Origin: Melioribacteraceae bacterium
Lineage (GTDB): Bacteria > Bacteroidota > Ignavibacteria > Ignavibacteriales > Melioribacteraceae
Direction of reading: 5' to 3'
Length of the DNA stretch: 64,000 nt
Assembly (NCBI GenBank): GCA_016342755.1
Contig: JAEINS010000005.1
Location: forward strand, 124,001-188,000
Numbering within the stretch: the stretch's first letter is position 1; each line of letters starts with the position of its first letter. This document shows positions 17,558 to 35,023 of the stretch, piece after piece. The translations under genes and the position numbers were made by a program. The notes under the pieces were generated by a model. It had not been told where the DNA came from. It saw only the letters and a program-made list of their open reading frames with translations, and made no database searches.

Positions 17558-18891
17558 TTAATTTTTTCTGTTTACAACAACAATCTTTTCCAATTCTTCC
17601 AGCGATTTACCTTTTGTTTCGGGCATTACTTTCCAGACAAAAATGTAAAATGGAATCATCATTACGGCAAAGAAAATAAAAATGTGACCGCCCCCGAATA
17701 TTGTAAGAGCTATGGGAAATACAAGACCAATTACGGCATTCATAATCCAGTGAGTAAATGATCCTAAAGATTGACCTTTAGCTCTAATCTTATTAGGGAA
17801 AATTTCCGCAAGAAAAACCCAGATCACCGCTCCCTGTGAGAAGGCAAAAAACGCGATAAAGCTGATTATAAAAATAGAACACCGGTGTCTCCAAAAAGAT
17901 TTTCGTTATAATAGTGTAATCCGGCACCCGATAAAGAAACAAACATTCCAACTGCACCAATCAGTAATAATGTTTTCCGCCCGACTTTATCAATAAAAAA
18001 CATAGCCGCTATTGTAAAGATCATATTTGTTATTCCAACTGCAACAGCCTGAAACATTGCTGTAGAAGTAGTAGCGCCTGTCTCTTCAAAAATCATTGGC
18101 GCATAATAAAGGATTGCGTTTATACCTGATAATTGATTAAATACGGCAAGTAGTACAGCACACATTATTACAAATTTATATTTGCCCTGAAACAATTTTT
18201 CTGATGATCTTCCAACTTCTTCTTTTAGTGATTCAACAATTTGTGACAATTCATTTTCAACATTAACAGACCCAATTTGCTTTAGCACTGAATGGGCATT
18301 TTCAATTAGTCCCCTTTTAACAAGCCAGCGCGGGCTTTCCGGAACAAACATCATTAAAATAAAAAATAGTACCGCCGGAATTGCTTCAACACCAAACATC
18401 CACCGCCAGCTATCTATGCTAATATCCACTAGATAATAATTTGAAAAAAAAGCGATCAGAATTCCAAACACAATATTAAACTGAGCAACGGCAACAAGCC
18501 GGCCTCTTAAAGCACCTGGTGAGATTTCGGCAATATACATAGGTGCCATAACAGATGAAGCACCAATAGCTAATCCTCCAATAAATCTTGAAAACAAAAG
18601 CATATACCATTCACTTGCCATTGCGCAGCCAAGTGCCGATATAAAATATAAAGCTCCACAGGTTATCAGTATTATTTTTCTGCCGTAAATATCACCCAAT
18701 TTGCTAATACTTATCGAACCAACTACGGTTCCCCATAGGGCAATTGAAACTGTTATACCAAGTGACGTATCACTTAAATTAAAATAGGAAGAAATAAACT
18801 TTGTTGTACCTGATATTACTGCTGTATCAAATCCAAAGAGAAAGCTTCCTAAGGCTGATATAATAGTTGCAAAAAATATTTTTTTATTCAA
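17558..18891 (-). pseudogene. MFS sugar porter (xylose/glucose-proton symporter type) with a single-base frameshift
   Basis: Two fragments make one sugar porter. The first part reads MNKKIFFATIISALGSFLFG, then FDTAVISG, GRKIILI, PESPRWLVKRG and NQLSGINAILYYAP, and stops after GVLFL. The second, in another frame, continues FIAFFAFSQGAVIWVFLAEI and then FPNKIRAKG, GSFTHW and PETKGKSLEELE. Adding one T to the T5 run at 17870-17874 (minus strand) restores the frame through GVLFFIISFIAFF and gives about 444 residues, the normal size. I prefer the TTG start at 18891: GGAG lies 6 nt upstream, it matches the usual N-terminus, and it avoids overlap with the upstream gene. An ATG at 18939 is the alternative. 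This could be a real inactivation, slippage-dependent expression or a homopolymer error in the assembly. Confidence 0.85.
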
Positions 18892-18911
18892 GGAAGACTC
18901 CGAAAACTCTT

Positions 18912-20705
18912 TTATAAACCGGCAATATCTCTGTACCATTTAGCTTTATGATCGAAAAAAGGAAACATTGGCACAGAACTTCTAATAGGAAAATGAGTTT
19001 TCTTAATACCCATATTACCTCCAAAATATTCAATCTTATCTATTAATTTCTGATCAATTGATATTTTATAATTAGCTATAACTTCCCTAAGATAATTATT
19101 AAGTCTATTTTGAAGTTGTTTATCTACCGCCAGGGAATAAACTTTATCTTTAATTTTTTCAAACTCAAAAGGGGCAGGACGTTTTATCTCTAATAATTTA
19201 ACTATCGCAAACGTTCCGTCTTTATTCTCAATCGGTTTGCTGATATCACCTGGTTTCATATTGACTAAAGCTTCCCCTATTTTACCCCACATATTTCTAG
19301 TAATATAAAGGCCGGGTTCTTTAGAATTAACCGCTAATTTATTAAGACTGTATTGTTTAGTTATTTTAACAATATCGGTACCAGCAATAATTCTTTTGTA
19401 AAGTTTATTAGATAATTTTTTATCCTTAACTATTAATGGAATTATTTTGAATTTCTCAGGCTGCATAAAATCATATTTTGTAGAATCGTAAATTTGAATA
19501 AGTCTTTCATCCTCAATAAATATTTCTTCTCTGGCTTTACTTATATATGATTGCGCAAGTATATTAGTTTGCCACATTGCAGATTGCTGTTTTACATAAC
19601 CTGTATTATTATATTCCCTTTGTAATGCGTCTTGCGAAACTGAATTAAGAAGAATTATTCTTTTCAGAACATCAAAAAGACCTTTCTCCAGGTCATTAGG
19701 ATTTTCGTAATTAAGCGGATAAGGAGATACAGAAATCATTTCCCAACAGTCTTCTACTGTCCAATTACTATTATCATCAAAGGTAATTAAAGTCTGTTTA
19801 AATGAATTTTCTTTTCTAATTTCGCTAACCAGTAATTCGTACTGTATAGACTCTGGGTTTTTATACTTAAGTCCGTTACGGTTATATATAACTGGATACA
19901 ATTGCTGAAGCAAAAAATTGTAGGCTTGTTTATTTATACTGAATGATCTGTCATTCATGAGGCTGCTAATCTTTTGATCAACAGAATATTTTTCTTTCCG
20001 TTCTCTAACTCTCTTTTCTACTTCCGGCAGCAACTCATTTCTAGAATATTTTTTAAACTCCGCTACAGGTTCTTTCGTAACTAACTTAAATATGTAATAA
20101 AGGCTGTCAACTAATATAGGATCAGAAATTTCACCTGACTTAAGATTATAAACCGCGTTTTCAATCTCTGGTAACGAAACTGAATATTCAATTTCCTTAA
20201 ACTGCGGCTGTATATCTAATTTATTCCCTTTTAATAAACCCTTTCTCAATTTTTCGCTTTCGGCTAAACTTTTTACTGTCCAAAAATTAACAGATCTTTT
20301 TTCTACAAATTTTGGATAAGCATCTAAAATCTCTTTTTCTGATACATTAATTTTTGCTCTTACTTCTTTGTTCATCCATTCTTCATAAAGAGCTTCATTT
20401 TTATATTCTTCAGCTAACAGGGAAACCCTCTTTAACGTATCTAACTTTTCTTTTTGTGCCTCGCAAGAAAAAACTGTCTCGGCAATTAAAGTAGCCGTTA
20501 AATTTTGTTTTAATTCATGTATTGGCAATTTTAATGTCTGCGGTATACTGTTCAGTCTGCTCTGAAACTCTTCGAAGCTAATCTTTCTATCATCAATTTT
20601 AATAACCGTATCGGAATCTTTATCCGCACATGACGTTATTAATATTAGACATAATAGAATACTAAAATTTAAAATGGTTGTTTTTTTTCTCAATAGCTTT
20701 TTCAT
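18912..20705 (-). CDS. Peptidyl-prolyl isomerase-like lipoprotein (SurA/PpiC type)
   Basis: A 597-aa lipoprotein: the signal peptide ends LITSC. The N-terminal half is helical and resembles the SurA/PrsA chaperone region (VIKIDDRKISFEEFQSRL, EEWMNKEVRAKINVSEKEILDAYPKF). The C-terminal part (about 418-525) has parvulin-like features (PEKFKIIPLIV, ITKQYSLNKLAVNSKEPG, IGEALVNMKPGDISKPIENKDGTFAIVKLLEI). Such proteins help outer membrane or exported proteins fold in the periplasm. Its place inside a mannan operon suggests a dedicated folding factor for the TonB receptor, PorV-like protein or T9SS cargo (inference). An AGGA site precedes the ATG. The sugar porter follows 20 nt after its stop. Confidence 0.75.
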   Translation of the reverse strand: MKKLLRKKTTILNFSILLCLILITSCADKDSDTVIKIDDRKISFEEFQSRLNSIPQTLKLPIHELKQNLTATLIAETVFSCEAQKEKLDTLKRVSLLAEEYKNEALYEEWMNKEVRAKINVSEKEILDAYPKFVEKRSVNFWTVKSLAESEKLRKGLLKGNKLDIQPQFKEIEYSVSLPEIENAVYNLKSGEISDPILVDSLYYIFKLVTKEPVAEFKKYSRNELLPEVEKRVRERKEKYSVDQKISSLMNDRSFSINKQAYNFLLQQLYPVIYNRNGLKYKNPESIQYELLVSEIRKENSFKQTLITFDDNSNWTVEDCWEMISVSPYPLNYENPNDLEKGLFDVLKRIILLNSVSQDALQREYNNTGYVKQQSAMWQTNILAQSYISKAREEIFIEDERLIQIYDSTKYDFMQPEKFKIIPLIVKDKKLSNKLYKRIIAGTDIVKITKQYSLNKLAVNSKEPGLYITRNMWGKIGEALVNMKPGDISKPIENKDGTFAIVKLLEIKRPAPFEFEKIKDKVYSLAVDKQLQNRLNNYLREVIANYKISIDQKLIDKIEYFGGNMGIKKTHFPIRSSVPMFPFFDHKAKWYRDIAGL

Positions 20706-20745
20706 TATTTTCCTAAACTCTCAAAATGTTTAATGTTATTTTCAA

Positions 20746-23010
20746 TTATTTAAGATATAACATTTTACACACTTTGGTATAATTACCAGCTTGCAATCTG
20801 TAAAAATATACTCCGCTCGCTAATTTAGAAGCATCGAACTTAACATTATATTTACCGTCAGCTTTTTCTTCTTTTACTAATACAGAAACTTCATTCCCTA
20901 AAATATTATAAACTTTTAACTCAACAAATTCTCTATTGCTAATTGAATATTGTATTGTTGTTGCGGGATTAAACGGATTTGGGTAATTCGGTTCCAGACT
21001 ATATCCGGTTGGAGTTACGTCTAAATCATTTTCAATATTTGTAATTTCTTTCGGTTTTGAAATAGTAATACTAAAGATCTTTGGTCCCCATCCGTCCGAA
21101 AGAATTCCGTCTTCAAACTTCAGGTAAAAATCATCCCATCCGTTTTTAAAGAAATCATTTATACTAATTTTCACATCAGTCAAATTCCATCCGTGAACAT
21201 GTGTATCGGTGGCTCTCCATCTTTCAACTTGTGTCCAGTCACCATTAAGGCTGTCTGAAGCACTAATTACATATTCACTGCTTACAGAAATATTCATCAT
21301 AAGTTCGTCAGGATAATCACTCAGCTTTTGAATTTCTTCTTTACTGAAATGATAAATTATCACATCGCTGCTATCAGCCCATCTATGAAGAGAATCAGAA
21401 CCACTTCCCGGATATTCCGTTACCAGATACTGCTTTTCTATCTCGCCATTATTAGGAATAAATTCTATTATATTTTCTCTGGGACCTAAATTCTTTTTAA
21501 TTAACGCCACAAAAGCATCTGGTGTAACAACAATTACGTTACTATCCAGTTTACTTACGCAGTCTAATACATCATCAACGTTCTCAGACCATACATGAAC
21601 AGGCACTAAACTATATGCTGCCGATGAATAAACATCTTTTGAAGCTTTATTTAATTTTCTGGCTAGTTCAGTTGCGTCATCAAATTCCGGAACCCACAGT
21701 TGATATCTTCCGTAAATTACCGGTTTATCGTTTACCCATTTTATTTTACCGTTGCCTCTAACATAACTGCTGTAGTAATAATAAAATACCGCATCTATAT
21801 TATCCTGTTCAAGAAATGGTTCTATATACTGATCAGCATCATTATTTCCTAATAAGTTTAGAATCCTTAAATCCGCTTTTTTCATAAAACTATTTGTTAA
21901 TGAAGCAAAAGATTCCACATCATTATACCGTTCAGGAAACATGTAACCTACACCAGAAGGTCCGGCAACAAAATGATCTCGTCCTGCCTCAGTATTAGCC
22001 GCATTATCATAGAAATATTTTAGAACTGTCGGAGCTAATTCTGCATGAGCCGGAGACATTGTCCAGCCAATATTTGTTAACCCGCGTTTACTGCTTCCAT
22101 ACCATCCCGGATTAGAAGCAAATCCCCCCAGTGTCCATTGAATATTATCACCATCAGTCATTAAAAAGCAGACATAATGCGCATTTTCTTTCGGTTCAAC
22201 CCGTTTAACAGGTTCCTTCTGTTTTACCTCAGCCTCATAATTTGATAACACTGATAAATTTGAAGCAAAATCTGCTGCGTGAACGTATATATCGTACTTT
22301 GAAACTTCATCAACTAAGCCATGCTCATCAAAGCCCCATCCAAACAGTGCTGAATTAGGTTCGAACGAATTAAATATTTTTTCAGTCCATGTAGTAAACT
22401 CACCATTATATAAACTTATCATTTTACCAAATGACGCATAATCAGCTAAAAATTCCGGCATGGTATCTTTTTGAAAACACAAAATATTTTTATTGATCTG
22501 ATCTCCATAATTATCGAAGAACCAGTTTTCATCTCTTTCACGTACATCTTCCAGCATTGTTATTCCATACTTCTCAACAATCTTTTTTGAAGCACCTGTT
22601 ACAGCAATGGAATTAGTAATACCGCATAATGAAATAGCGACACTTACGGAATTATCATCAAGATTACATAATATATAATGATCAATATCATTTTTAAAAT
22701 GTTCAATCAGTCCATCGAAGTTATACATATAATCAGAATTTACAACGGTTCCATAATTATTTTCAAGATCATCCAGCCACATTTCATATTCATTAGAACT
22801 GATTCTAAATATTTTTGGTTTTGTCTGGGCTAAAATACCCTGCAAGGTTCCAACAGTTAACAATTCACTTTTCGAAAGATGTTTATCGTATACTTTGAAC
22901 AATGTATCAGGCTTTTCTGAAACGGGATAAGGGCTCCCGGGAATTCGGCTAATTGATTGTGAAAATAAAAACTCAGTAAATAATAAGATCGCGATAAAAA
23001 ATTTCTTCAT
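20746..23010 (-). CDS. GxGYxYP-family putative glycoside hydrolase with HRWAD/GWGP module and T9SS domain
   Basis: A 754-aa secreted protein. The first 515 residues match the GxGYxYP putative hydrolase family: FLMTDGDNIQWTLGGF, GWTMSPAHAELAPTVL and the signature GPSGVGYMFPERYND at about residues 352-365. Residues about 520-655 form a module with HRWAD (about 538) and DGWGP (about 640) that also occurs four times in the protein encoded at 24740-27673. The C-terminus (about 670-754) is a T9SS sorting domain (NYPNPFNPATTIQY ... KMLYLK). Known biochemistry for the family is scarce; hydrolase activity is predicted from fold only. A paralogue without the last two domains lies immediately upstream. 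Together they suggest the same catalytic domain in two locations. Confidence 0.85.
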   Translation of the reverse strand: MKKFFIAILLFTEFLFSQSISRIPGSPYPVSEKPDTLFKVYDKHLSKSELLTVGTLQGILAQTKPKIFRISSNEYEMWLDDLENNYGTVVNSDYMYNFDGLIEHFKNDIDHYILCNLDDNSVSVAISLCGITNSIAVTGASKKIVEKYGITMLEDVRERDENWFFDNYGDQINKNILCFQKDTMPEFLADYASFGKMISLYNGEFTTWTEKIFNSFEPNSALFGWGFDEHGLVDEVSKYDIYVHAADFASNLSVLSNYEAEVKQKEPVKRVEPKENAHYVCFLMTDGDNIQWTLGGFASNPGWYGSSKRGLTNIGWTMSPAHAELAPTVLKYFYDNAANTEAGRDHFVAGPSGVGYMFPERYNDVESFASLTNSFMKKADLRILNLLGNNDADQYIEPFLEQDNIDAVFYYYYSSYVRGNGKIKWVNDKPVIYGRYQLWVPEFDDATELARKLNKASKDVYSSAAYSLVPVHVWSENVDDVLDCVSKLDSNVIVVTPDAFVALIKKNLGPRENIIEFIPNNGEIEKQYLVTEYPGSGSDSLHRWADSSDVIIYHFSKEEIQKLSDYPDELMMNISVSSEYVISASDSLNGDWTQVERWRATDTHVHGWNLTDVKISINDFFKNGWDDFYLKFEDGILSDGWGPKIFSITISKPKEITNIENDLDVTPTGYSLEPNYPNPFNPATTIQYSISNREFVELKVYNILGNEVSVLVKEEKADGKYNVKFDASKLASGVYFYRLQAGNYTKVCKMLYLK

Positions 23011-23031
23011 AATTATAAATCCCCGGTATTA

Positions 23032-24657
23032 CTAATGTTGAATATTTTTTCTAATGAGGGCTACAAATTCATCAGGTGTTACAACACGCACATTATCATC
23101 AAAGTGGTTTATTGTAGTAAGTACATCGTCTACAGATTCCGTCCAGACATGAACCGGAATTAAACTGTATGCTTTTGAATATGTAATGTCCTTAGACATA
23201 ATGTTAATTTTATCAGCCAAAGTTTCCGGGCCGTCAAACTCTCCGCCCCATAACTGATAGCGGCCGGTTATAACAGGTTTATCATTTACCCAATATATAT
23301 TACCTTCTCCGCCAACATAGCTATAATAGTAATAGAAAAATATTGCGTCTATCTGTTCCTGTTCCAAAAATGGCTTTAGATAATCTTCTTTAACTGTTGT
23401 TCCAATAATATTAAGTATACGCATATCTGCTTTTTTCATATACTCGGCAGTTTTAACGGCAAAGTTCTCCAGATCACTATACTGATCTGGAAAAATATAT
23501 CCCATTCCCGAAGGTCCGGCAACAAAATAATCTTTTCCTCCTTTTTCCCTTCCGGCAGTATCATAAAATTTTTTTAAAACTGTAGGAGCTAATTCGGTTA
23601 AAGCAGGAGCCATTGTCCAGCCAATATTTGCTTTTTTTCTATTTGGACTTCCATACCAATTAGAACCTTCCTTAAATCCTCCAACAGTCCATTGTATGTT
23701 ATCACCGTCTGTCATTAAAAAACAAACTGTATGAACTTTTTCGAGTACATCAGGATTATTATTGTAATTCAATTGTTTTGTATCAACACCAAAATTTGAC
23801 AGAGTAGAAAGATTAACAACCCAATCTGCCGCATCAACTATAATTGCATTACTAGAAGCTACTTCTACAAGCTGATCTTCACTAGTTCCCCAGCCAAGCA
23901 GTACTGCATTATTATTCATCTCGGAAAATACTTTTGAAGTTAAACTGCTTCTAATACCGTCATAAAAGAAAAATCCTTTCCCAAAAACTGCATAATCAGA
24001 TAAGAACTTAGCTTTAGAAGCTGTCTGATAACACAAAAAATCCTTATTAACCTGATCGCCGTATCGTGTAATAAAATCCTCGTAAGGCTTATTTCTCACA
24101 TCTTCAGTTAAGGAAATACCCGTTTCTTTTATAATTGCTTCGTCATTATCCAATACTACTATTGAGTTAACAAGACCCGCCAAAGAAAACGCATAATGAA
24201 TTGAAGTCTGTCCCGGTTTTGTTAAAATATAACCATCAATTTCATTCTTAAAATGTTTTAATAGTCCTTCAAAATCAGCACTATATGTATAGATAGTTTT
24301 TACACCGTAATTAGATTTCAAGTCATAAAGCCAATCTGAGTAACTTCCCGGACTAAGTCTGTAAATTCGGGGTTTAGTTTGTGCAAGTAAACCTTGCAAA
24401 CTTTGGATAGTAATTAATTGTGAATCAGTAAAATTAGGATCCTCAATAATATATAGAGTATCAGGTTTACTGGAAGCGGGATACGGACTGCCTAGTAATC
24501 TAGTAGGCTCAGAATATTCAATAGAACTGCCGTTCTTACCAGAATCAACAACATTAGAATCTTCGGAACATCCGTAAAATAAATTTAGAACTGCAGTAAT
24601 TAGCAATATTAAAAGGCTATAATTACTTTTTTTTTGGTTCTTTTTAACTATCACCAT
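23032..24657 (-). CDS. GxGYxYP-family putative glycoside hydrolase, lipoprotein form
   Basis: A 541-aa paralogue of the downstream gene product, 21 nt away. I place the start at ATG 24657 (MVIVKKNQKKSN...), which gives a normal lipoprotein signal ending LFYGC; a GTG 20 codons upstream would add an implausible N-terminus. The family signature is GPSGMGYIFPDQYSD (about residues 380-393), with FLMTDGDNIQWTVGGF and GWTMAPALTELAPTVL. It ends soon after FVALIRKN, so it has neither the HRWAD/GWGP module nor a T9SS domain. It is therefore probably anchored by lipid, facing the periplasm or surface, while its sister is released or surface-attached by T9SS. Substrate unknown. Confidence 0.83.
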   Translation of the reverse strand: MVIVKKNQKKSNYSLLILLITAVLNLFYGCSEDSNVVDSGKNGSSIEYSEPTRLLGSPYPASSKPDTLYIIEDPNFTDSQLITIQSLQGLLAQTKPRIYRLSPGSYSDWLYDLKSNYGVKTIYTYSADFEGLLKHFKNEIDGYILTKPGQTSIHYAFSLAGLVNSIVVLDNDEAIIKETGISLTEDVRNKPYEDFITRYGDQVNKDFLCYQTASKAKFLSDYAVFGKGFFFYDGIRSSLTSKVFSEMNNNAVLLGWGTSEDQLVEVASSNAIIVDAADWVVNLSTLSNFGVDTKQLNYNNNPDVLEKVHTVCFLMTDGDNIQWTVGGFKEGSNWYGSPNRKKANIGWTMAPALTELAPTVLKKFYDTAGREKGGKDYFVAGPSGMGYIFPDQYSDLENFAVKTAEYMKKADMRILNIIGTTVKEDYLKPFLEQEQIDAIFFYYYYSYVGGEGNIYWVNDKPVITGRYQLWGGEFDGPETLADKINIMSKDITYSKAYSLIPVHVWTESVDDVLTTINHFDDNVRVVTPDEFVALIRKNIQH

Positions 24658-24739
24658 AAATAAATTCTCACTAAATAAAAAATAAGCGGGCAGAGATAAT
24701 ATTTTATCCCCGCCCACTTTCTCACTATTACCTAACTAA

Positions 24740-27673
24740 CTATTTTAGGAGTACCATTTTTCTTATTAATTGCTGTGCATTATTATAAGATACACGGTAG
24801 AAATAAACACCGCTTGTTACTTTTCTTCCGAAGTTGTTTTCACCTCTCCATGTATATGTATATTTTCCTGAAGATTGTACATCGTTAACCAATGTAATTA
24901 CTTCACGTCCTAGCATATCATATATTCTTAAAGTAACATTCCCGGTAGTTGGAATCGTATAATTTATAGTTGTAGAAGGGTTAAATGGATTTGGATAGTT
25001 TTGGCTTAATGTAAATTCAGTAGGAATATTAACATTAACATCTTCAACATCGGTTACAACAGGTTTAAGGCTGCTTAAACCAACCGAGTATAATGAAGGT
25101 CCCCATCCATCTGTAGAAATACCATCTGTAAATACTATATAAACATCTTCCCAGCCCTGGTCAAAATATTCTTTTAATGATATATCTTTAACTTCATAAT
25201 TTTGTCCGTCATGATGAGGCTCGCCTATTGCACTCCAGGTATGCACCTGAGTTGCAGCACTGTCTAAGTTTTGTGTAACTGAAATAACATACTCATTTAC
25301 AAGTCCAACCTGGAATAATATATTATCAGCACCACCAGTTCTCCCTAATAGATCAGCTTTATTAAAGTGATAAGTAATATCAGATGTATTGTCTGCCCAT
25401 CTATGATTATCATCAAAGCCAGTACCTTCGTGACCAGAAACTATAAAATCAACTTCTGCTGTTCCAGCACGTCCGGGAACAAAATCTAATACCGGGTAAT
25501 AAGCTAAAAGTTCACGATAAGTTATGCTTGCTCCCCAATAGTCACCGCCCCATCCGTCAGCTGTAATTCCATCATAAAAGAAGAAAACTACACTAGTAAG
25601 ACCAGCATCTATATAAGGTTGAAGTGACATGCTAATTTGACCATAGTTACTGCCGTCATGTAATGGCTCACCAATTTCACTCCATATCTTAACTGTATCT
25701 TGTTCTTCGCGCGATACATTCTCGTCTGCGGCAGAAGTAATTACAAATTCATTTCTTCCCCACATATTGAAGAATAACTCAGTAGCATGATCTGTAGGTT
25801 TTAATCCCTGTAATTCAGTTAAATTAAATTTATACGCAAATGAAGTAGTTCCATCAACATAACGGTGAGAATCACCACCCTGAGAACCATCGTCTAAAAT
25901 TAAATACTCGCTGTCACCATTATCTACACTTGTTCCAGGAGTCCATGATAATAATTCTACTGAATTATAATCGCCTAAATAATAAACACGGATAGTATTA
26001 ATTCCCGGTCCCCAGCCTGCTGCTGGTAAACCATCAGTAAACCAAACATAAACGTCTTCAAAACCAAGCTCTCTCATTTGAGCTACAGAAATCTCAACAT
26101 CTGTTTCGTTCTCGCCGGTAGTTGCTGGTTCATCTTTTGAAGACCACATAGCAACATTAGTTTTTTCACCGGAAACCGAACCACTTACATCAACAACAAA
26201 TTCATTCCAAGTATGGAAATCTAAATAAAGATCAACACCAGGAGCTAAACTTTCAAGATCAGTTAAATTAAAACGATATCCTAAAGTATCACTATTATCA
26301 GCCCAACGGTGTGAACCGCTATTACCAGAACCTGTATATCCTTCAACTATATAAGGTTCATCTTCAGTACCAACACTAATTATTTTTAATAGACCTTTAG
26401 GTGTTTCTTCAGCATCAACAGCTGCTCTAAGATCTGTAATTTCAGTTTTTAATCCCCAAGAAGAAGGATTATCATCAACATTTTCGTCAATACCAGTTAT
26501 TAAAGCACCATCAACAGCCGAGCCGTCAAAATCTTCAACCTGGAATGCAAATGGAATAATTGGAATTTCGACGTTATCAACATTATAAATATCGGGGAAA
26601 TTAGTTGGACCCATTTTAAATGCTTTTTTAACAGTATCTGCTACATAAAAAGAGAAATATGGAATTTTAGCTTCTACTGAATATCCGGTTGAAGTTTTTG
26701 TAACACCAACTACAGCATCCGGTAATAATCCGTTTACAATCTTAGTTTCTAAAATTGTAGGTGCTGAATCGTTAATAAGTATTTCTACACGGTAATCAGG
26801 CTCTCTTTGTTTTCTATAACCGGTTAAACCAGGTAATGCTGTATGACCAAAATTAGGTGTATTTTCTTGCAGTGAATATAATCCTACATAAAATACTATT
26901 TTGTCACCATCCATTACAACATCATCATCAGTTACATTTGCGGCTAAATAAAGATTGTCTTTATCAAATCCGATAGTAGCACTTGCACTTAAATCAGCGT
27001 TATCATCAATCTGACCTACAGTAACAATACCTTCACCATCTTTGGCAATTGAGATCCATTCATTTTCTTCAGGCCATTCATCAGTTAGACCGTCATCAAC
27101 AGTAATAAAATCTAATTCACCAAGAACAGCGTTAACATTATTATCTAAAATTTCTGATAAATCCTGCTTAACATAAATACCCATATCAGTTACACTAGGA
27201 CCCCATCCATCAGACGGATGACCATCAAAAATACTTACATAAAGATCAGTCCAGCCAAAATCGATATAATCCTGTAACGGAATTGTTATCCAACCCTGGT
27301 TCTCGCCACTGTGTACACCATCTACATCAGGATTCTGCGAATATATAGCCACTTGCTCACCTTGAGATACATCAGTTATAGCTATATCAGAAAACTTAAT
27401 TAAATATTCGTTCCATAAAAAAGTACGTAAATAAATTTTATCACTTGAGATTTCAGAGTATTGAGATAAATCAAAGTGATATTCTAAAATTGTGCTTTCA
27501 TCTGCATATCTGTGATTACCCGATTGCTGGCCTGGTTCTATTAGGGAAGCCATTTCAGCGGCATTTTCATCACCAACACGAAAACGGAACAGAGGATTGT
27601 ATACTTCCTGGGCTTCAACATAACCCACCAACAGAAATAGAAAAATAAATAAAGAAGATAAATATTTTTTCAT
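24740..27673 (-). CDS. Four-repeat putative carbohydrate-binding protein with CBM9/DOMON-like domain and T9SS domain
   Basis: A 977-aa secreted protein with a signal peptide (SLFIFLFLLVGYVEAQ). Four copies of a module of about 130 residues are visible, each opening with HR(W/Y)xD and ending near DG...GWG(P/G): about 50-157 (NHRYAD, SDGWGP), 450-556 (SHRWAD, AAGWGP), 600-711 (SHRYVD, ADGWGG) and 753-860 (NHRWAD, TDGWGP). In between are EY(V/L)I or EF(V/I) strands and Gly-rich turns with SNYG/GQNY. Between copies 1 and 2 lies a CBM9/DOMON-like domain (about 180-420; DEWPEENEWI, IGFDKDNLYLAANVTDDDV). The C-terminus is T9SS (NYPNPFNPSTTINY ... KMVLLK). No catalytic motif is seen. A surface glycan-binding protein replacing SusE/F-type proteins fits best (inference). 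A strong AGGAG site precedes the ATG. Confidence 0.78.
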   Translation of the reverse strand: MKKYLSSLFIFLFLLVGYVEAQEVYNPLFRFRVGDENAAEMASLIEPGQQSGNHRYADESTILEYHFDLSQYSEISSDKIYLRTFLWNEYLIKFSDIAITDVSQGEQVAIYSQNPDVDGVHSGENQGWITIPLQDYIDFGWTDLYVSIFDGHPSDGWGPSVTDMGIYVKQDLSEILDNNVNAVLGELDFITVDDGLTDEWPEENEWISIAKDGEGIVTVGQIDDNADLSASATIGFDKDNLYLAANVTDDDVVMDGDKIVFYVGLYSLQENTPNFGHTALPGLTGYRKQREPDYRVEILINDSAPTILETKIVNGLLPDAVVGVTKTSTGYSVEAKIPYFSFYVADTVKKAFKMGPTNFPDIYNVDNVEIPIIPFAFQVEDFDGSAVDGALITGIDENVDDNPSSWGLKTEITDLRAAVDAEETPKGLLKIISVGTEDEPYIVEGYTGSGNSGSHRWADNSDTLGYRFNLTDLESLAPGVDLYLDFHTWNEFVVDVSGSVSGEKTNVAMWSSKDEPATTGENETDVEISVAQMRELGFEDVYVWFTDGLPAAGWGPGINTIRVYYLGDYNSVELLSWTPGTSVDNGDSEYLILDDGSQGGDSHRYVDGTTSFAYKFNLTELQGLKPTDHATELFFNMWGRNEFVITSAADENVSREEQDTVKIWSEIGEPLHDGSNYGQISMSLQPYIDAGLTSVVFFFYDGITADGWGGDYWGASITYRELLAYYPVLDFVPGRAGTAEVDFIVSGHEGTGFDDNHRWADNTSDITYHFNKADLLGRTGGADNILFQVGLVNEYVISVTQNLDSAATQVHTWSAIGEPHHDGQNYEVKDISLKEYFDQGWEDVYIVFTDGISTDGWGPSLYSVGLSSLKPVVTDVEDVNVNIPTEFTLSQNYPNPFNPSTTINYTIPTTGNVTLRIYDMLGREVITLVNDVQSSGKYTYTWRGENNFGRKVTSGVYFYRVSYNNAQQLIRKMVLLK

Positions 27674-27705
27674 TCGAAATTCTCCTGATAATTTTGAGTG
27701 ATTAG

Positions 27706-27730
27706 TTAATTAAGATAATTTCTTAATTGA
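27706..27730 (-). other. Intercistronic hairpin between PorV-like and four-repeat protein genes
   Basis: AATTAAG (27708-27714) pairs with CTTAATT (27722-27728), and the stem extends by a wobble and one more pair to 27706-27730, with a 7-nt loop. It stands 33-57 nt upstream of the four-repeat protein start. Such stems often set differential mRNA stability within an operon. No U-tract makes it a convincing terminator. Confidence 0.3.
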
Positions 27731-27782
27731 TTATTTATTTGTATGGATCTCAACTCTAAACCTTTCCAGTTTTTATTATCTC

Positions 27783-28790
27783 TTAAAAATTTAATTTCAC
27801 TGATATTTGTTGAGTATAGTCTAAGTATTCCACTTTTGTATAAGAATAATCAATACCCACAAAATCATATTTAATACCGGCACCAAATGTTAATCCGCTC
27901 ATATCTGTATCTATCAAGATAGATTTATAACCAGATCTTAGGGCAAAACAGTCGAATACAGTTAATTCGCAGCCTACATTTATGCTAGAGAAGTTATCAT
28001 TAGGATGAATGTAATCAGCCGTGATAAGTAATTTATTATTCTCAATTTCTAAAGCCCTGTAAGCAAGACCGAATCTAAAGCTAAGTGGCAGCGACCATTC
28101 TTTTGTATATAAATTGGTCATAATCTGAGTATTGTTACCAGTAATTGTTTCATCGATATCTGTAAATACAATTGCGTCAACACCCTGCATCTGTAATTTT
28201 TGTCCGAAATTAAGAATAGACATTCCTAAGGTTATTTTATCCCAAGGAAGTGTATACATAATACCGAAATCCATTGCTACAGAAGTCGCGTTCATGTGCC
28301 AGATTCTTCGGTTTATATATTTAAGAGTCATACCGAATGAAAAACGGTCAGTGAGCTTTTTAGAATAACTCAGACCTAGTGCTAAATCCGCAGCGTCGAA
28401 ACGGGTACCAAGCCCTTCAGGTTCCTCAACAGTTCTAACAACCATTTCAGGAGTTGAAAAAGAAGTTACCGAAAGTCCAAAACTTCCTAATTCACCACTA
28501 TGTATTACGGCACCAAAATTAACGAACTTCATTCCGGCAAACCAATCAACATAATTGAACGCCGCATCATTTAATGTATATCTATCTAAGCCGGCAGGGT
28601 TCCAGTACATAGCAGAAGCATCGTTAGCAACTGCAGTATAGGCTTCACCTAAACCTGCTGCTCTAGAGCCGACACCAATTTGTAAAAACGGCGCGGCCGA
28701 GGTTCCAACTTTTGAAACCTCCTGAGACCAGGTTGTAAGCTGGCATAGTAGTAATATTATTGTTATAGGTAATATTCGCTTAAGTTTCAT
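27783..28790 (-). CDS. PorV/PorQ-family outer membrane protein
   Basis: A 335-aa predicted beta-barrel. The start at ATG 28790 is chosen because GGAG stands 5 nt upstream and it begins the signal peptide (MKLKRILPITIILLLC...); an ATG 4 codons earlier lacks this. Family features are GTSAAPFLQIGVGSRAAGLGEA, YTAVANDASAMYWNPAG, LGLSYSKKLTDRFSFGMTLKYI and the C-terminal alternation ending KLNF. PorV is the outer-membrane shuttle of the type IX system; PorQ- and PorV-like paralogues are common next to TonB receptors in Ignavibacteria. Here it closes a three-gene set with the receptor and the large surface protein, so it may help deliver that protein to the surface (inference). Confidence 0.85.
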   Translation of the reverse strand: MKLKRILPITIILLLCQLTTWSQEVSKVGTSAAPFLQIGVGSRAAGLGEAYTAVANDASAMYWNPAGLDRYTLNDAAFNYVDWFAGMKFVNFGAVIHSGELGSFGLSVTSFSTPEMVVRTVEEPEGLGTRFDAADLALGLSYSKKLTDRFSFGMTLKYINRRIWHMNATSVAMDFGIMYTLPWDKITLGMSILNFGQKLQMQGVDAIVFTDIDETITGNNTQIMTNLYTKEWSLPLSFRFGLAYRALEIENNKLLITADYIHPNDNFSSINVGCELTVFDCFALRSGYKSILIDTDMSGLTFGAGIKYDFVGIDYSYTKVEYLDYTQQISVKLNF

Positions 28791-28804
28791 TTGTTCTCCC
28801 ATGA

Positions 28805-31800
28805 TTAATTAATTATTGCGAACGTACCGGTTTTTTGACCAATACCAGGAGCGTCGATATGAAAGACATAAATTCCAAATGATACTTCTAAACCTTCATC
28901 TGTTGTAATGTCCCAAAATTCACTTCCGTCCGAGTTAGAACCACCATGTTCTATTGTTTTAATTAATATTCCGTTTTGTGTAAAGATTCTAATTTTACAC
29001 TTGGAGGGTAAATGAATGAATGATATTTTTCTTTCACCCCTACCGGAAAGATCTGATCCTCTTTCCCAACTAGCAGTTAACATATAAGGATTAGGAACAA
29101 CAGCTACTTTATTCAATGATTCTTTTTCCACTCCTTTTGTACCGCTTGCAGTGGTTGTAAACTCAAATGAATCATTTGCGGTAAATGGATTATCACAGAT
29201 AAATGTAAATCTATCACCATCTTCTGGTTCAACAGCATCTACGTTTGGATCAGCAGGAGCCAGGAAACCTATATTCCATGCTTTAACTATTCTGTTATCC
29301 AATGTATAATGCAGTACAGTTACTATATCACCAGGATTTATTTTCCCATCTTTATTTAGATCTCTGCTAAACTGGAAGTCCAGTGTATCAAGAGTATTTC
29401 TATCATATACTTTGAAGTATACCGGATCAGTTTTCTTGAATGGCTTATGACTTGGTACATCAGTTACTTCTATAATAAAGTCCTTAGAAATAAGTCCTGA
29501 TCCACCTTGTGAAACATTGGTTCTAAGGTTAGTTTTACTATTATCAGTCCAGCCCGATAAAGCATTTATCTTTATTGGATCCGGCGCTGTATTCTGAAAT
29601 CTAAGCTGCATTCCGTCAAATACAGGAGAAATCCATGAAAGTGTTTTTGTTGTTATAGTGTCTGTAGGTATCGAAACTTCATCCAATAAAACCATAGCTG
29701 TACTAATATTTTTTACGGTATAGGACATTGTATGTATTTCACCTACATTATTAAGCTCATCTATAAACGTAACTTCATAATTATTATTATCTACAAGTTC
29801 TTCCGGATTAATAACCTGTACTTTTACCGAACCTGTAGTTGGCGAGCCATCTAATTTTGTAATTCTACCCTGTTCATCAGCATCAGTATATCCGCTATTA
29901 TAATCAGTTGCCAATGTATTTGGTATAACTATAACCGCGTTTCTGCTTATTGCCGATAAAGCACCATACTGATAAGTAATTTCGAACGGAGATTCAGCAG
30001 GAGACATATTAACAAGGTTTCTATCATCCATACCAGGATAATATCCCTGATCGTACGCGACAACAACATAGTAATAGGTCATTCCGTTTATTACATCATC
30101 ATCTTCATAATAATAATTTAAACCAGTATCGTCTCCCATATCATAATGTATACCGGACGAATACTCATTTCCTATTTCCTGACCTAATGCCACAGGATGT
30201 AAATTTCTAATCCCGTTTATTAAATCGAACTGAGCAATTGATTTATAGTAAGCAAAACTTCCGTACGAGTTTGTAATTACCTGTGCATCAGTTAACTGAG
30301 GATCGGTACCTTTATAGATTTTATATCCTTCAAAATCCTTTCCATATACAGGATCTAAAGATCTTTCAGCAAAGTTATCCCAGTAAATAGTTACTTTCTC
30401 ATCACCGGCAACAGCTTTAACAGTAGGTGTTAACGGAGGTTTAGTAAATCTGTAATCGTTATCATAAATCTGCTGCGATGTATACGCGTTTCTAAATATT
30501 TGTCTTTCATCATCACCAAATAACCAGCACACAGAAAATCTTTCTGTCTGATTTTGTGAAAGATTAAACGGTCCGGAAGCAAATATCCAGAGTCTGTTTC
30601 CATCGTTTTCCGGCTTTTCAAAATTGCCAGGTTGAATATACTGCCAAATCGACTGATCGTTACTTGAAGTTAAAGCACCATAAAGAGGAGCATAAAAAGA
30701 AGTTAAACCAATCTGATCAGATTCGTCGTTATCAGTTTTACCAAAGTTAGGTTCACCCTGATCAGGCATTCCGTTTCCTTCAGTACCATCAAAATCTGGA
30801 CCTACATAATTAAGATCTAACGGGCCAATTCCATCGGTACCAACATCATCTCTTAATGCATCCCAATCACCATCTTCATCACCACTCCAGTGATCTTTAT
30901 TTTCACCATAATTACCAATATCACCGGATTCAATCCATATACCGGCATCATTATCTCTTCTCTCATCAATTAAACCGTCTTCATCATTATCAAATCCGTC
31001 TAACTGTCCCGGACTCTCTAAATATTTCCAAGCCATATAGCCAGGTAATATTTCGCGTGAACTTGCCCATTGACCTTTATTATCTTTTGCCCAGGCAAAA
31101 ACCATGTTATCGCCGTTTGAATAATCATTTAAGTCATTAGAACTTCCAAGTCCGCCGGGATGAGTATCGGCAAAGGCACCTAAGTAAATATTTTTGTTAT
31201 AATCATTATTTGATATGTTGGTTACCTGGAAATGAATAAATATTTGATCTTGCGCTAAAGGATGCGCCCATTGGAATAATCTGGTTTCAACCTGCATTCC
31301 TAATCCTCTTTTAGTACTGTCAGAGGCAATAGGATAATAAGGGAATTCAGAATTTTCAAAATCATCAATTACATAAACTGCTTCTTTATCGGCAGTAAAT
31401 TGATTCTGTCCAAAATATCCGTTCCATGTACCATCCCACGAAGCGTCTTTACCCGGCCAGTTTGAAGGCCATGTACTTTCATCGGTACTTGCAGCAACTT
31501 TTGCGGTTGTATCAACCATTCCCGATGCATTAACAAATCTTCTATCATCATTTGCGTAACCTGGTAAAGGATTCCACCAAAATTCTTTCCCGTCGGGAGA
31601 ACGGTCAGATCCTTCTGAATATGAATCTGATGCTATCTGGTATAAATCACCATCTTTACCAACAACTTCCGCAGAAACAAGCATTGTCATTTCATGAATA
31701 TGACCGTGACCTGTACCCTTTGGCCAAACACCAGAATACGGATCATCTCGTTTACCAAACATTCCCCAGTTTCCAAAAATAGATTCAGCTCTATTTGCAT

Positions 31801-31942
31801 TCATTATCTGTTCTTTACGGTATTTTTTTTCACCTTTATTAGGATCAATATAAATACTGCCATTCTGAGCATAAATTTTCCCAAACAAACCTAAGACCAT
31901 AATTGTCATTAAGTGGAGAATAAACCATTTTTTAATTACCAT
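28805..31942 (-). CDS. Large secreted surface protein with FN3-like and Ca-binding segments, T9SS-like C-terminus
   Basis: A 1045-aa exported protein lying between the TonB receptor and the PorV-like gene. After the signal peptide comes a conserved-looking N-terminal region (ANRAESIFGNWGMFGKRDDP, GHGHIHEMTMLVSAEVVG). Asp-rich segments follow (GFDNDEDGLIDERRDND at about 313-329, SGDEDGDWDALRDD), a fibronectin-III-like region (EKVTIYWDN ... YYYVVVAYDQG, about 520-650) and a dockerin-like loop (DLNKDGKINPGD, about 860-872). The C-terminal 100 residues (VVPNPYMLTASWERG ... GIYVFHIDAPG ... TGTFAIIN) resemble a variant sorting domain. No catalytic motif is recognised. From its position it may be the surface partner of the TonB receptor in place of SusD (inference). 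GAGGA precedes the ATG. Confidence 0.72.
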   Translation of the reverse strand: MVIKKWFILHLMTIMVLGLFGKIYAQNGSIYIDPNKGEKKYRKEQIMNANRAESIFGNWGMFGKRDDPYSGVWPKGTGHGHIHEMTMLVSAEVVGKDGDLYQIASDSYSEGSDRSPDGKEFWWNPLPGYANDDRRFVNASGMVDTTAKVAASTDESTWPSNWPGKDASWDGTWNGYFGQNQFTADKEAVYVIDDFENSEFPYYPIASDSTKRGLGMQVETRLFQWAHPLAQDQIFIHFQVTNISNNDYNKNIYLGAFADTHPGGLGSSNDLNDYSNGDNMVFAWAKDNKGQWASSREILPGYMAWKYLESPGQLDGFDNDEDGLIDERRDNDAGIWIESGDIGNYGENKDHWSGDEDGDWDALRDDVGTDGIGPLDLNYVGPDFDGTEGNGMPDQGEPNFGKTDNDESDQIGLTSFYAPLYGALTSSNDQSIWQYIQPGNFEKPENDGNRLWIFASGPFNLSQNQTERFSVCWLFGDDERQIFRNAYTSQQIYDNDYRFTKPPLTPTVKAVAGDEKVTIYWDNFAERSLDPVYGKDFEGYKIYKGTDPQLTDAQVITNSYGSFAYYKSIAQFDLINGIRNLHPVALGQEIGNEYSSGIHYDMGDDTGLNYYYEDDDVINGMTYYYVVVAYDQGYYPGMDDRNLVNMSPAESPFEITYQYGALSAISRNAVIVIPNTLATDYNSGYTDADEQGRITKLDGSPTTGSVKVQVINPEELVDNNNYEVTFIDELNNVGEIHTMSYTVKNISTAMVLLDEVSIPTDTITTKTLSWISPVFDGMQLRFQNTAPDPIKINALSGWTDNSKTNLRTNVSQGGSGLISKDFIIEVTDVPSHKPFKKTDPVYFKVYDRNTLDTLDFQFSRDLNKDGKINPGDIVTVLHYTLDNRIVKAWNIGFLAPADPNVDAVEPEDGDRFTFICDNPFTANDSFEFTTTASGTKGVEKESLNKVAVVPNPYMLTASWERGSDLSGRGERKISFIHLPSKCKIRIFTQNGILIKTIEHGGSNSDGSEFWDITTDEGLEVSFGIYVFHIDAPGIGQKTGTFAIIN

Positions 31943-31978
31943 ACTATTATCCTCAATTTCTTATCTTATTAGCTTCTA

Positions 31979-34645
31979 TTAAAAGTTTACCGATAATCCA
32001 ACTTTTACAAGTCGTGGTCTCGGTTGAGAAGCAGGATTATATCTATAATCGTATAGAGTATTTATATATTCTTTAGATTCGTGACCTTCTATATCATCTT
32101 GCTTCAATTCAGGAAAATTTTCACTTAAAGTTTCATCTAATAAATTCTCGACCTGCATAAAGAAAGTTGTAGAAAGTCCGGCAATTTCTAAGTTTTTATA
32201 TAGTCTCACATCAACATTAACTCTTGGCTTTCTTCTGCCCATATTTCTCAATTGAACATTTGAGGTTTGAATATATGTGGTTGAAGGTGAAAACGGATAG
32301 CCGGATTGATATCTTGAGATTGTACTAATACCCCAGTCTTTACCATTTAGATTTAATACCCAGTTAAATACATGTCTCTGATCCCAATTTAATGGCACAA
32401 GAGTTTTAGTTGATTCATCATTGTTACCCGCATCATAAAATGCCTGTTTAGGATCCGAACCGTTACCTTCGGCAACCTGATAAGTATAATCAACCGTTGA
32501 GGATACAATACCGGCACGTAACAGATCAAGAGCTAAAGTAAATCCCCAAACACTACCGTAATCATAATTAGTATATTTACCGTATGAAACCTGATCGAAT
32601 GTTTCATAAAGTTTTGTACCGGCCAAATTTCTAACATCTTTATAATAACATGTAGCATCAAGAACTATATTTGGAGTTAACATCTGCTGTAAACCAATTT
32701 CATAAATAGTGGTTCTTTCCGCTTCTAAATCAGCATTTCCTATAAAAGATTCGAATGTACCAATAACTTCAAAATCCGGATTTTCATAAAGTCTGCCTAA
32801 TTCTGGAATTTGAAAAAACTGTCCAAAAGAAGCGTGAAGTGTTCCTTCGTCAGAAATTGGAAATGCCATTCCTAATCTTGGACTTAACTGCATCTTAGCA
32901 TCTACGTCTTCATAAGCATCATCAAAAGATTTTGGTTCAGAAGAACCTGTTGAAATATTTGACGGATTGGTAAAATCTTTTGGAACATAACTTTTTGCAT
33001 TAAAGTAATCGAAACGCAGACCTACGTTAACTATAAGATCTTCTATCTCAATCTTATCTTGTATATACGCCGAAATTTCAATTGGCTTCTTTTTGTAATA
33101 ATTATGAGCCATTGAAGAAACATCATCAACCTGAAGTTGCCAGTTTGTACCTTCATCTCTTCTAACAACAAAATATTCATCTTCCAATTTATTCTGTCTG
33201 TATTCAACACCCATCTTAACAAGATGTGATCTGTGAATCTGACTTGTTAAATCATATTTTATGGCTAAAGTATTACTATATCTTTCCGAGAATCCGGTTG
33301 AAACCAAACCGATAGCAAATATATCGGAAGGTGTATTTGCCTGGTTGTGTATTTCTTTTTCATATCTTGGATCAAAAGGATCTTTATATTTTGAACTTTC
33401 AAAATTGTATGTATAATTTGCAATCCGTAACTCGTGCACTGTACTTGGACTTAAGGTATGTGTAAAAGATAAAATGTTGTTTATACCCCAAGATTTGCTT
33501 GTACCGTCATGATCAGGATTATACTTCTGGGAATGATTATAACCTCTCCATTTAGAATAGTCTGAGATTAAATTGTAAGATACTTTCAAATTGTTAAACA
33601 ATCTGAAAGAAAGCTTTCCCTGTAAAGCTCTTGACTGTGAAGGATTCATCTCAACAATGCTGCTGTCGCCGCCGTATTGAATTGTCCAATTCTCAGGATT
33701 TGTGCTGCTAAAATCGGCTGAATCACTAGGCGAATGATTTCTTTGTCCGTATAACCAATTTTCAACATCTGTAATACGTGTAGAAAGGAAAAAGTTTGCA
33801 TTCTTAACAAACGGAATTGGACCACTTACAAATCCTTCAAAATATTTTTGCGAAAGAGGATTAATGTCATCAATATTAAAAAACATATCATCGTGTGTAG
33901 TTAGGAAATCCCCTGTGTAACCAGATATTGAACCTCTGAATTTTTCAGTTCCCTCTTTAGTTACAATGTTGACAATTCCTGACATTGCGCGACCATATTC
34001 CGCATTAAAGGTTCCACTAATAACTTCCATTTGCTGAATTGTATTGTTCTGAACTGATACCGCCATTCCGCCGCCAAATGGGTTAGAAACCGAAATTCCA
34101 TCAACCATATATTCAATCTCTGCTGAACGGCCGCCTCTTAGATGTAATCCGCCTCCGGCATCCTGAGTAATACCTGTTTGCAGTGAAAGGATATCTCCAA
34201 TACTTTCAACCGGCATTTTTTGAATTTCATCAGCACTAATCTGTTCTGATGAAGCAGTTAAATCTTTAATAATTCCCTTTTTGCTGGCAATTATTTCAAT
34301 TACTTCAGTTTGCAAGTCGCCAATTGTTAATTCAAAATCAATACTAGTTGTTCTGTCTACATTAACCACAACTTGTTTTTTAACAACTGACTGATAACCT
34401 ATAAATGAAGCTTTAACATCGTAAACGCCCGGAGGGATATTAATTATATAATAAGTTCCTTCAATATCGGCAGAACCTCCAAGATTAGTACCCATAATCA
34501 TAATATTTGCACCAATCAATAATTCGCCAGTTTCGGCATCTACAATTTTACCTGAAATTTTCCCCGTTGTTCCGCACCATAATCTTGAAGGAAAAATTAA
34601 GGTTACAAGAACTAACAATGTTAGTAATAATTTTACTTTTCGCAT
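31979..34645 (-). CDS. TonB-dependent receptor with carboxypeptidase-regulatory-like domain
   Basis: An 888-aa outer membrane receptor. After the signal peptide, residues about 27-115 are a CarboxypepD_reg-like domain (GKISGKIVDAETGELLIGAN, GTYYIINIPPGVYDV). A plug domain follows (about 125-240; SIGDILSLQTGITQDAGGGLHLRGGR, EVISGTFNAEYGRAMSGIVNIVTKEG). The rest is a 22-strand type barrel ending in the outer-membrane signature ...GLSVNF with terminal Phe. It would import mannooligosaccharides using TonB energy (inference from context). Unlike Bacteroides SusC it has no SusD next to it. It is the first gene of the 34-kb minus-strand run and its upstream region (34646-35023) carries the divergent promoter. 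Confidence 0.92.
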   Translation of the reverse strand: MRKVKLLLTLLVLVTLIFPSRLWCGTTGKISGKIVDAETGELLIGANIMIMGTNLGGSADIEGTYYIINIPPGVYDVKASFIGYQSVVKKQVVVNVDRTTSIDFELTIGDLQTEVIEIIASKKGIIKDLTASSEQISADEIQKMPVESIGDILSLQTGITQDAGGGLHLRGGRSAEIEYMVDGISVSNPFGGGMAVSVQNNTIQQMEVISGTFNAEYGRAMSGIVNIVTKEGTEKFRGSISGYTGDFLTTHDDMFFNIDDINPLSQKYFEGFVSGPIPFVKNANFFLSTRITDVENWLYGQRNHSPSDSADFSSTNPENWTIQYGGDSSIVEMNPSQSRALQGKLSFRLFNNLKVSYNLISDYSKWRGYNHSQKYNPDHDGTSKSWGINNILSFTHTLSPSTVHELRIANYTYNFESSKYKDPFDPRYEKEIHNQANTPSDIFAIGLVSTGFSERYSNTLAIKYDLTSQIHRSHLVKMGVEYRQNKLEDEYFVVRRDEGTNWQLQVDDVSSMAHNYYKKKPIEISAYIQDKIEIEDLIVNVGLRFDYFNAKSYVPKDFTNPSNISTGSSEPKSFDDAYEDVDAKMQLSPRLGMAFPISDEGTLHASFGQFFQIPELGRLYENPDFEVIGTFESFIGNADLEAERTTIYEIGLQQMLTPNIVLDATCYYKDVRNLAGTKLYETFDQVSYGKYTNYDYGSVWGFTLALDLLRAGIVSSTVDYTYQVAEGNGSDPKQAFYDAGNNDESTKTLVPLNWDQRHVFNWVLNLNGKDWGISTISRYQSGYPFSPSTTYIQTSNVQLRNMGRRKPRVNVDVRLYKNLEIAGLSTTFFMQVENLLDETLSENFPELKQDDIEGHESKEYINTLYDYRYNPASQPRPRLVKVGLSVNF

Positions 34646-35023
34646 TAACTGTATCTCTATTTTTTTAAAGAATATTTACAATTAAGATTTAAATTAACTA
34701 CTCTTAGTGTTTCAAATACCAAAAACATAATTAAAGCCTGTTATTTCTAATTCGTCTTAATACCTCCTTTTACATTATATATATTGTTACGCTATTTAAA
34801 TCTTTTGCATATAAAAATTACATTTTTTATAACAGAGTGTCAATACTTTTTAGCATCTTTTTATATACTTACACTATTTTTTAGTATTTTTATATTTATT
34901 ATATATATACTGTTGGGATTTTAATGTGATTTTCGCTAGAATGTATTTTGATTTACACAATATATTTCTTATTATCGCTGTATTTATTAGTTACTGATAC
35001 ATAAAACTTTATGCTGAATTATT
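34646..35023. promoter_or_regulatory. Divergent promoter region with three TATATA-type elements
   Basis: This 378-bp gap separates the TonB receptor operon (minus) from the symporter-regulator operon (plus) and holds no gene. Three related AT elements stand in it: ATTATATATATTGTT (34774-34788), TTATATACTTACAC (34861-34874) and TTATATATATACTGTT (34899-34914). On the minus strand they read A-A-C-A-(A/G)-TATATATA or close to it, and similar elements stand at 44343, 44551 and 58835. They may be operators of the nearby regulators, or -10 boxes (the first contains TATAAT on the minus strand), or simply AT-rich chance matches. Confidence 0.4.

Follow-up and report, generated by a model that had tools for sequence, protein, structure and literature searches.

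A repeated domain of predicted beta-sandwich fold, probably carbohydrate-binding, shared by a four-repeat T9SS-tailed protein and a GxGYxYP protein in a putative mannan locus of Ignavibacteriales

The modules with which alpha-mannosidases bind their substrates have barely been characterised (PMC10167667). In a multidomain GH92 enzyme of Neobacillus, where a CBM32 is inserted into another CBM-like domain, the CBM32 domains had little effect on the binding of alpha-mannan and mattered for integrity (PMC10167667). The GxGYxYP proteins, which were proposed to be glycoside hydrolases from the structure of BT2193, are encoded in an alpha-mannan locus of B. thetaiotaomicron and are known with attached CBM6, CBM32 (F5/8C), PA14 or laminin-G domains; no catalytic activity had been shown for those of mannan loci when they were last reported on (PMC4071793).

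The window analysed here, a stretch of 64,000 nucleotides from the genome of a Melioribacteraceae bacterium, carries genes for GH125, GH76, three GH92, GH38, GH43 and GH127 enzymes together with BSP peptidase, ROK and MFS genes, such as one would expect where alpha-mannan or mannose-rich glycans are the substrate. Genes for two CotH-kinase-domain proteins that bear T9SS tails are also present (12402-15086 and 60212-63991), one of them next to the GH125 gene within the mannan locus, and a search of positions 18000-36000 against Rfam gave no match. Two GxGYxYP genes lie side by side on the minus strand. The protein of 754 residues encoded by one of them (P0002; 20746..23010) scores over the cut-off for all four GxGYxYP Pfam domains (PF16216, PF20957, PF20958 and PF14323), matches the BT2193 structure (PDB ID: 3sgg) at E 1.9e-67, and has a DGD at residues 286-288 that is the proposed active-site Asp-x-Asp pair of the family. 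Its hydrolase-like part, as delimited by Pfam, takes up residues 39-505 (21496..22896), and it ends in a T9SS tail at residues 676-750 (20761..20985; TIGR04183, E 1.7e-11). The other gene (23032..24717) also encodes a GxGYxYP protein by Pfam, with DGDN at residue 337 and neither T9SS tail nor the repeat described below; judging by a lipobox-like cysteine (GCS at residue 49), the product is probably a lipoprotein.

Five homologous copies of one domain are found at this locus, four of them in a protein of 977 residues (P0001; ORF at 24740..27673, minus strand) and the fifth in the adjoining GxGYxYP protein, between its hydrolase-like part and its T9SS tail. In leave-one-out tests each copy reached 87-132 bits (E 7e-25 to 9e-39) with a profile built from the other four, and the best of 10,000 shuffled copies only 18 bits, and because the former lie so far above the latter we regard the repeats as real. 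Pairwise BLAST among the five segments agrees, with identities of 28-37% and E-values of 8e-13 to 9e-35 against the five-sequence set. All copies are on the minus strand: repeat 1 at 27164..27553 (residues 41-170; 87 bits when held out), repeat 2 at 25973..26392 (residues 428-567; 113 bits), repeat 3 at 25499..25954 (residues 574-725; 90 bits), repeat 4 at 25061..25489 (residues 729-871; 132 bits), and the copy on the GxGYxYP protein at 21049..21471 (residues 514-654; 112 bits). The original prediction, made by reading the sequence, had picked out these segments by an opening HR[WY]xD and a closing GWG[PG], and both motifs are where it placed them, at residues 54, 455, 603 and 757 and at 156, 553, 707 and 856 of the four-repeat protein, respectively, and at 542 and 640 of the GxGYxYP protein, whose copy has the support of pairwise BLAST as well. 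The finer description needed revision: the copies are about 140 rather than about 130 residues long and start 13-29 residues before the HR, and of the GxNY turn only GxN is general, the tyrosine being restricted in the window to repeats 3 and 4. Similarly, the HR and GWG[PG] cores are present in the window copies, but several enzyme-attached orthologues have KR and AYGP or AYGV in their place. The genome, of 4.73 Mb and estimated to be 100% complete, holds only these five copies.

The four-repeat protein, a putative surface glycan-binding protein with full-length orthologues at 40-44% identity, has an N-terminus that reads as signal peptide-like and has no lipobox, followed in order by repeat 1, a CBM9-like domain, the contiguous repeats 2, 3 and 4, and a T9SS C-terminal sorting domain (24743..24997, minus strand; residues 893-977; TIGR04183, E 1.3e-11; PF18962). 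The repeats had been listed correctly beforehand, but both the sorting domain and the CBM9_1-like domain (26399..27142, minus strand; about residues 178-425, the limits being approximate) had gone unmentioned. The latter scores 22.4 bits with PF06452, just under the cut-off of 23.4, which two orthologues exceed (L056 with 27.8 bits and L002 with 33.1 bits); the profile thus explains the middle domain of the protein, and it gives no match to the repeats.

Searches of Pfam, NCBIfam and PDB sequences, whether run with individual domains or with a 29-member profile, yielded nothing credible or consistent, in keeping with the earlier remark that no named family is known to have this signature. The best family match, to F5_F8_type_C at E 0.0059, came from one of the 29 members, the other 28 having none at E 1, and by this profile (PF00754) the 29 members fall outside the F5_F8_type_C/CBM32 family. 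CapZ (E 0.02 over 43 columns), KH_PARP14 and DUF3948 turned up as chance matches. CAZy defines some CBM families that are missing from Pfam, and the domain might accordingly belong to a family in CAZy or dbCAN that is absent from the Pfam, NCBIfam and PDB copies searched, in which case it would not be a new family. We think this unlikely, given that so broad a profile finds no credible PDB sequence and nothing consistent in Pfam or NCBIfam, and that no result points to a particular family.

The AlphaFold2 model of repeat 4 alone, built from a 29-row alignment, is a beta-sandwich predicted with high confidence (pLDDT 94.6, pTM 0.90), which suggests a discrete module that folds on its own; together with the leave-one-out homology it bears out the idea that all copies share one such domain. 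Foldseek gives weak matches in the PDB and BFVD (best PDB E 7e-4, TM by query mostly 0.3-0.5). By VIA-align the nearest structures are reelin (Z 9.7), an ANXUR malectin-like domain (9.1) and a porphyran-binding CBM (PDB ID: 8xmz; 8.9), with CBM35 (Z 8.1-8.5), CBM29 (7.9-8.2) and CBM22 (7.8) close by, the superpositions on CBM29, CBM35 and CBM22 aligning 113-123 residues at an rmsd of 3.5-3.7 Å. Identity to these neighbours is 4-17%, and Z-scores of 8-10 are common also to reelin and MAM; for the model, then, the matches are near-ties at the level of the fold, none marking out a closest family. Because a confident jelly-roll model goes together with the lack of any sequence-family match, the domain is best described, as judged against Pfam, NCBIfam and PDB sequences, as a family without a name within a known class of folds, predicted to be that of the jelly-roll, galactose-binding-like domains.

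We sought relatives of the domain by scanning genome contigs. Three further Ignavibacteriales genomes (L001/G998, L002 and L003/G397) have the same pair of proteins, one with four repeats and a T9SS tail, the other a GxGYxYP protein with a single C-terminal copy and a T9SS tail, and in two of the three the four-repeat protein has a CBM9_1 match. One of these genomes, G397 of the Ignavibacteriaceae, has at least five GxGYxYP genes on contigs C319 and C46 (L059, L060), of which three bear the repeat and a T9SS tail and two do not. Fusion to GxGYxYP domains is thus seen in the window, L001, L002, L003 and G397, and another relative, G934, has the domain joined to a GH99-like catalytic region. This assignment is partial, as the region matches PDB GH99 endo-alpha-mannosidases (annotated family 71) at E 6e-5 but reaches only 26.4 bits with Pfam, under the cut-off of 33. 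Members of GH99 are endo-alpha-mannosidases. The domain is therefore contiguous, as far as sequence can tell, with two kinds of putatively carbohydrate-active catalytic domain, the putative glycoside hydrolase GxGYxYP and the GH99-like one, and since it occurs on the second as well it moves between unrelated enzymes. The original prediction had compared its presence in a multi-repeat protein and on an enzyme with the distribution of carbohydrate-binding modules, a comparison strengthened both by the GH99-like fusion and by the three genomes with the pair. The notion of a general association of the domain with GxGYxYP proteins was rejected: these occur in 15 of 197 genomes of the class, with no copy bearing the domain in the loci retrieved outside the window's own.

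The domain is rarely detected, with the narrow profile in 1 of 395 genomes of the phylum (the window's own), with the broad profile in 4 of 391 genomes of the class, and in 5 of 388 genomes of the phylum of L004, all of these being lower bounds because a limited number of candidates was scored per genome; a tblastn search of plasmids found no copy. Two more distant loci, in Verrucomicrobiota and Omnitrophota, encode a protein of about 700 residues with one copy plus another that is interrupted by a complete copy in a loop; the domain was matched in 6 of 14 Omnitrophota genomes, where whole and half copies follow one another in the same order. The matches at L061:9198-11495, at L062:10700-12766 and in G1081-G1085 are to such a secreted protein with one copy inserted in the loop of another; RND efflux genes lie near those of L061 and L062, and no mannan genes were seen in either locus. 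In Verrucomicrobiota, L038:457-1848 and L039:442-1851 encode secreted calcineurin-like phosphoesterases with a remote copy at the C-terminus, and the remote copies of L036 and L037 stand near the N-terminus of large proteins with no assigned family. Since no connection with mannan was seen for these relatives, which are found on metallophosphatases or large proteins, specificity for mannan need not extend to the whole fold family.

Such remote copies also bear on the proposal that the HRWAD and GWGP cores form a ligand site. Seven residues (G22, R30, D33, Y40, N65, D122 and G130 in repeat 4 numbering) are conserved in nearly every member, and for the most part in the remote Verrucomicrobiota relatives too; since they persist in relatives of other function, phosphoesterases among them, this core looks structural and suggests a role in keeping the fold. 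His29, in comparison, occurs in the copies from Ignavibacteriales alone, and the residue at positions 31 and 129 (Trp31 and Trp129) varies, though mostly among aromatic ones. The proposed site is thus only partly tenable, with R30, D33 and G130 looking structural and H29 and the two tryptophans variable. This speaks for the main rival explanation, that the domain is a rigid spacer or stabilising beta-sandwich without a ligand of its own and that only the CBM9-like domain binds. A full-length AlphaFold model, made from only four sequences, is poor globally (pLDDT 62), so that its inter-domain geometry and CBM9-like part cannot be interpreted; it does show strands and helices succeeding one another in a similar way in each of the four repeats, with strands that continue between neighbouring ones (E557-577 and E711-731) as they might in a rod. 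The CBM32s appended to the alpha-mannosidase, too, were needed more for integrity than for binding (PMC10167667). Nevertheless, four copies with differing loops that have been kept as distinct orthologous groups are not what a spacer would lead one to expect, and the recurrence of the domain on two enzymes of mannan loci that are unrelated to each other fits a binding module better, so we consider a purely structural role improbable.

The history of the copies was traced in a tree of 31. Repeats 1, 2 and 3 of the four genomes with the pair each group in a supported clade of their own (99/97, 95/94 and 97/97, respectively), and the array is therefore older than the divergence of these genomes or has been passed on whole. 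Repeat 4 falls into one clade (98/93) with all of the enzyme-attached copies, which group together inside it (99/95), those on GxGYxYP proteins along with that on the GH99-like protein of G934. The latter copy and its T9SS tail are 39% identical over 239 residues to repeat 4 and the tail of the window's four-repeat protein, and the simplest reading would be that a repeat 4-like domain with its T9SS tail became fused to two unrelated catalytic domains. That the enzyme copies group with repeat 4, the one adjoining the tail, means that the two may have spread as a cassette, and could also be taken to indicate that the copies mediate assembly, the enzyme-borne domain docking with the four-repeat protein or with the secretion or attachment machinery and so clustering enzymes at the receptor. 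We give this little credence, however, because the other T9SS-tailed proteins of the genome do without the domain, because the remote relatives are found in other settings, and because no known docking fold was matched. For similar reasons the domain was set aside as a T9SS accessory: with further T9SS-tailed proteins in the genome and only five copies, it is not needed for secretion.

The four-repeat gene lies directly downstream of three genes, all on the minus strand, for a TonB-dependent receptor (31979..34645; PF00593 and PF07715), a protein of 1045 residues with no Pfam match (28805..31942) and an outer-membrane protein of the PorV/PorQ family (27783..28802; NF033709, 214 bits, with 20 further matching places in the genome). 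Trio and four-repeat gene are syntenic in G998 and, up to the end of the contig, in G397. Cassettes of this kind (TonB receptor, protein of about 1040-1270 residues, PorV-like protein), with the gene order unchanged, are found at nine places in the genome, the middle protein having paralogues at the same position: the window (27783-34645), L107 (C9), L108 (C24), L109/L110 (two on C28), L111 (C6), L112 (C18), L113 (C34:104-122k) and L115 (C15), that on C18 being near a second GH125 gene. The SusD_RagB profile found no match in the genome and was positive on a Bacteroides control, which makes the cassette a candidate substitute for SusCD. On C6 and C18 the product of the gene after the PorV-like one has a T9SS tail, together with a weak CBM20/X25-like match in the first and an F5/8C domain in the second, such a gene not being present in every cassette. 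In G934 the place of the four-repeat gene is taken by that of a T9SS protein which matches CBM9_1 (43.9 bits) and has other repeats. These repeats (L057:17060-19999) are of another, seemingly unrelated kind, with strand patterns like 'KFRVQYDGNTKAYTST...GTWKTAIFEIRDAKF...NGGADFRI', and Pfam matches only CBM9_1 and the T9SS tail in the protein. By its position after the cassette, the four-repeat protein would be the glycan-binding component.

Taken with the enzyme fusions, this leads us to a reading that we hold to be the best explanation and moderately probable, namely that the repeat is a non-catalytic domain of carbohydrate-binding type, used in an exported surface glycan-binding protein and in the targeting of enzymes, probably for mannose-rich glycans; binding of carbohydrate by the domain is itself probable. 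Repeat 1, the CBM9-like domain and repeats 2 to 4 would make up an elongated protein, exported and anchored at the cell surface by the type IX system, that catches mannose-rich glycans by many weak contacts and feeds the TonB receptor encoded upstream. The single copy on the GxGYxYP protein, and that on the GH99-like enzyme of the relative, would keep the enzyme attached to that same substrate. A more specific proposal, which we put forward tentatively and as rather less likely to be right, is that the domain represents a new CBM family for alpha-mannan or high-mannose glycans, of patchy occurrence in Ignavibacteriales and with distant branches in Verrucomicrobiota and one other phylum, and serves to catch the glycan in an uptake system that lacks SusD and is made up of TonB receptor, protein of about 1050 residues, PorV-like protein and T9SS-exported binding protein. 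A new module family tied to GH76, GH92, GH125, GH38 and GH99 loci would offer a handle on the capture of fungal or N-glycan mannans, and a testable clue to the substrate of GxGYxYP proteins, for which we found no known activity in the literature.

Compared with CBM29, CBM35 and other jelly-roll CBMs, the domain is alike in its predicted overall beta-sandwich (VIA-align Z about 8-9 over 113-121 residues) and similar in size, but identity is only 7-14% and no sequence-profile relation was found in Pfam or the PDB. The enzyme part of the 20746-23010 protein is a member of the GxGYxYP family, for which alpha-mannan loci and attached binding domains are both known; its C-terminal domain, followed by a T9SS tail, differs in matching none of the attached domains reported (CBM6, F5/8C, laminin-G, PA14) (PMC4071793). 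Against SusE and SusF, the four-repeat protein differs in having a T9SS sorting domain where these have a lipoprotein anchor, in being built of different domains, and in coming from a genome without a SusD_RagB match. It resembles them in being multi-domain and non-catalytic and in having its gene just downstream of that of a TonB, SusC-like receptor in a glycan-degradation locus, and may do the same surface glycan-binding job. The locus points to an uptake cassette without SusD that is recurrent in Ignavibacteriales and that, if this is true, would serve these bacteria as SusCDEF serves Bacteroides.
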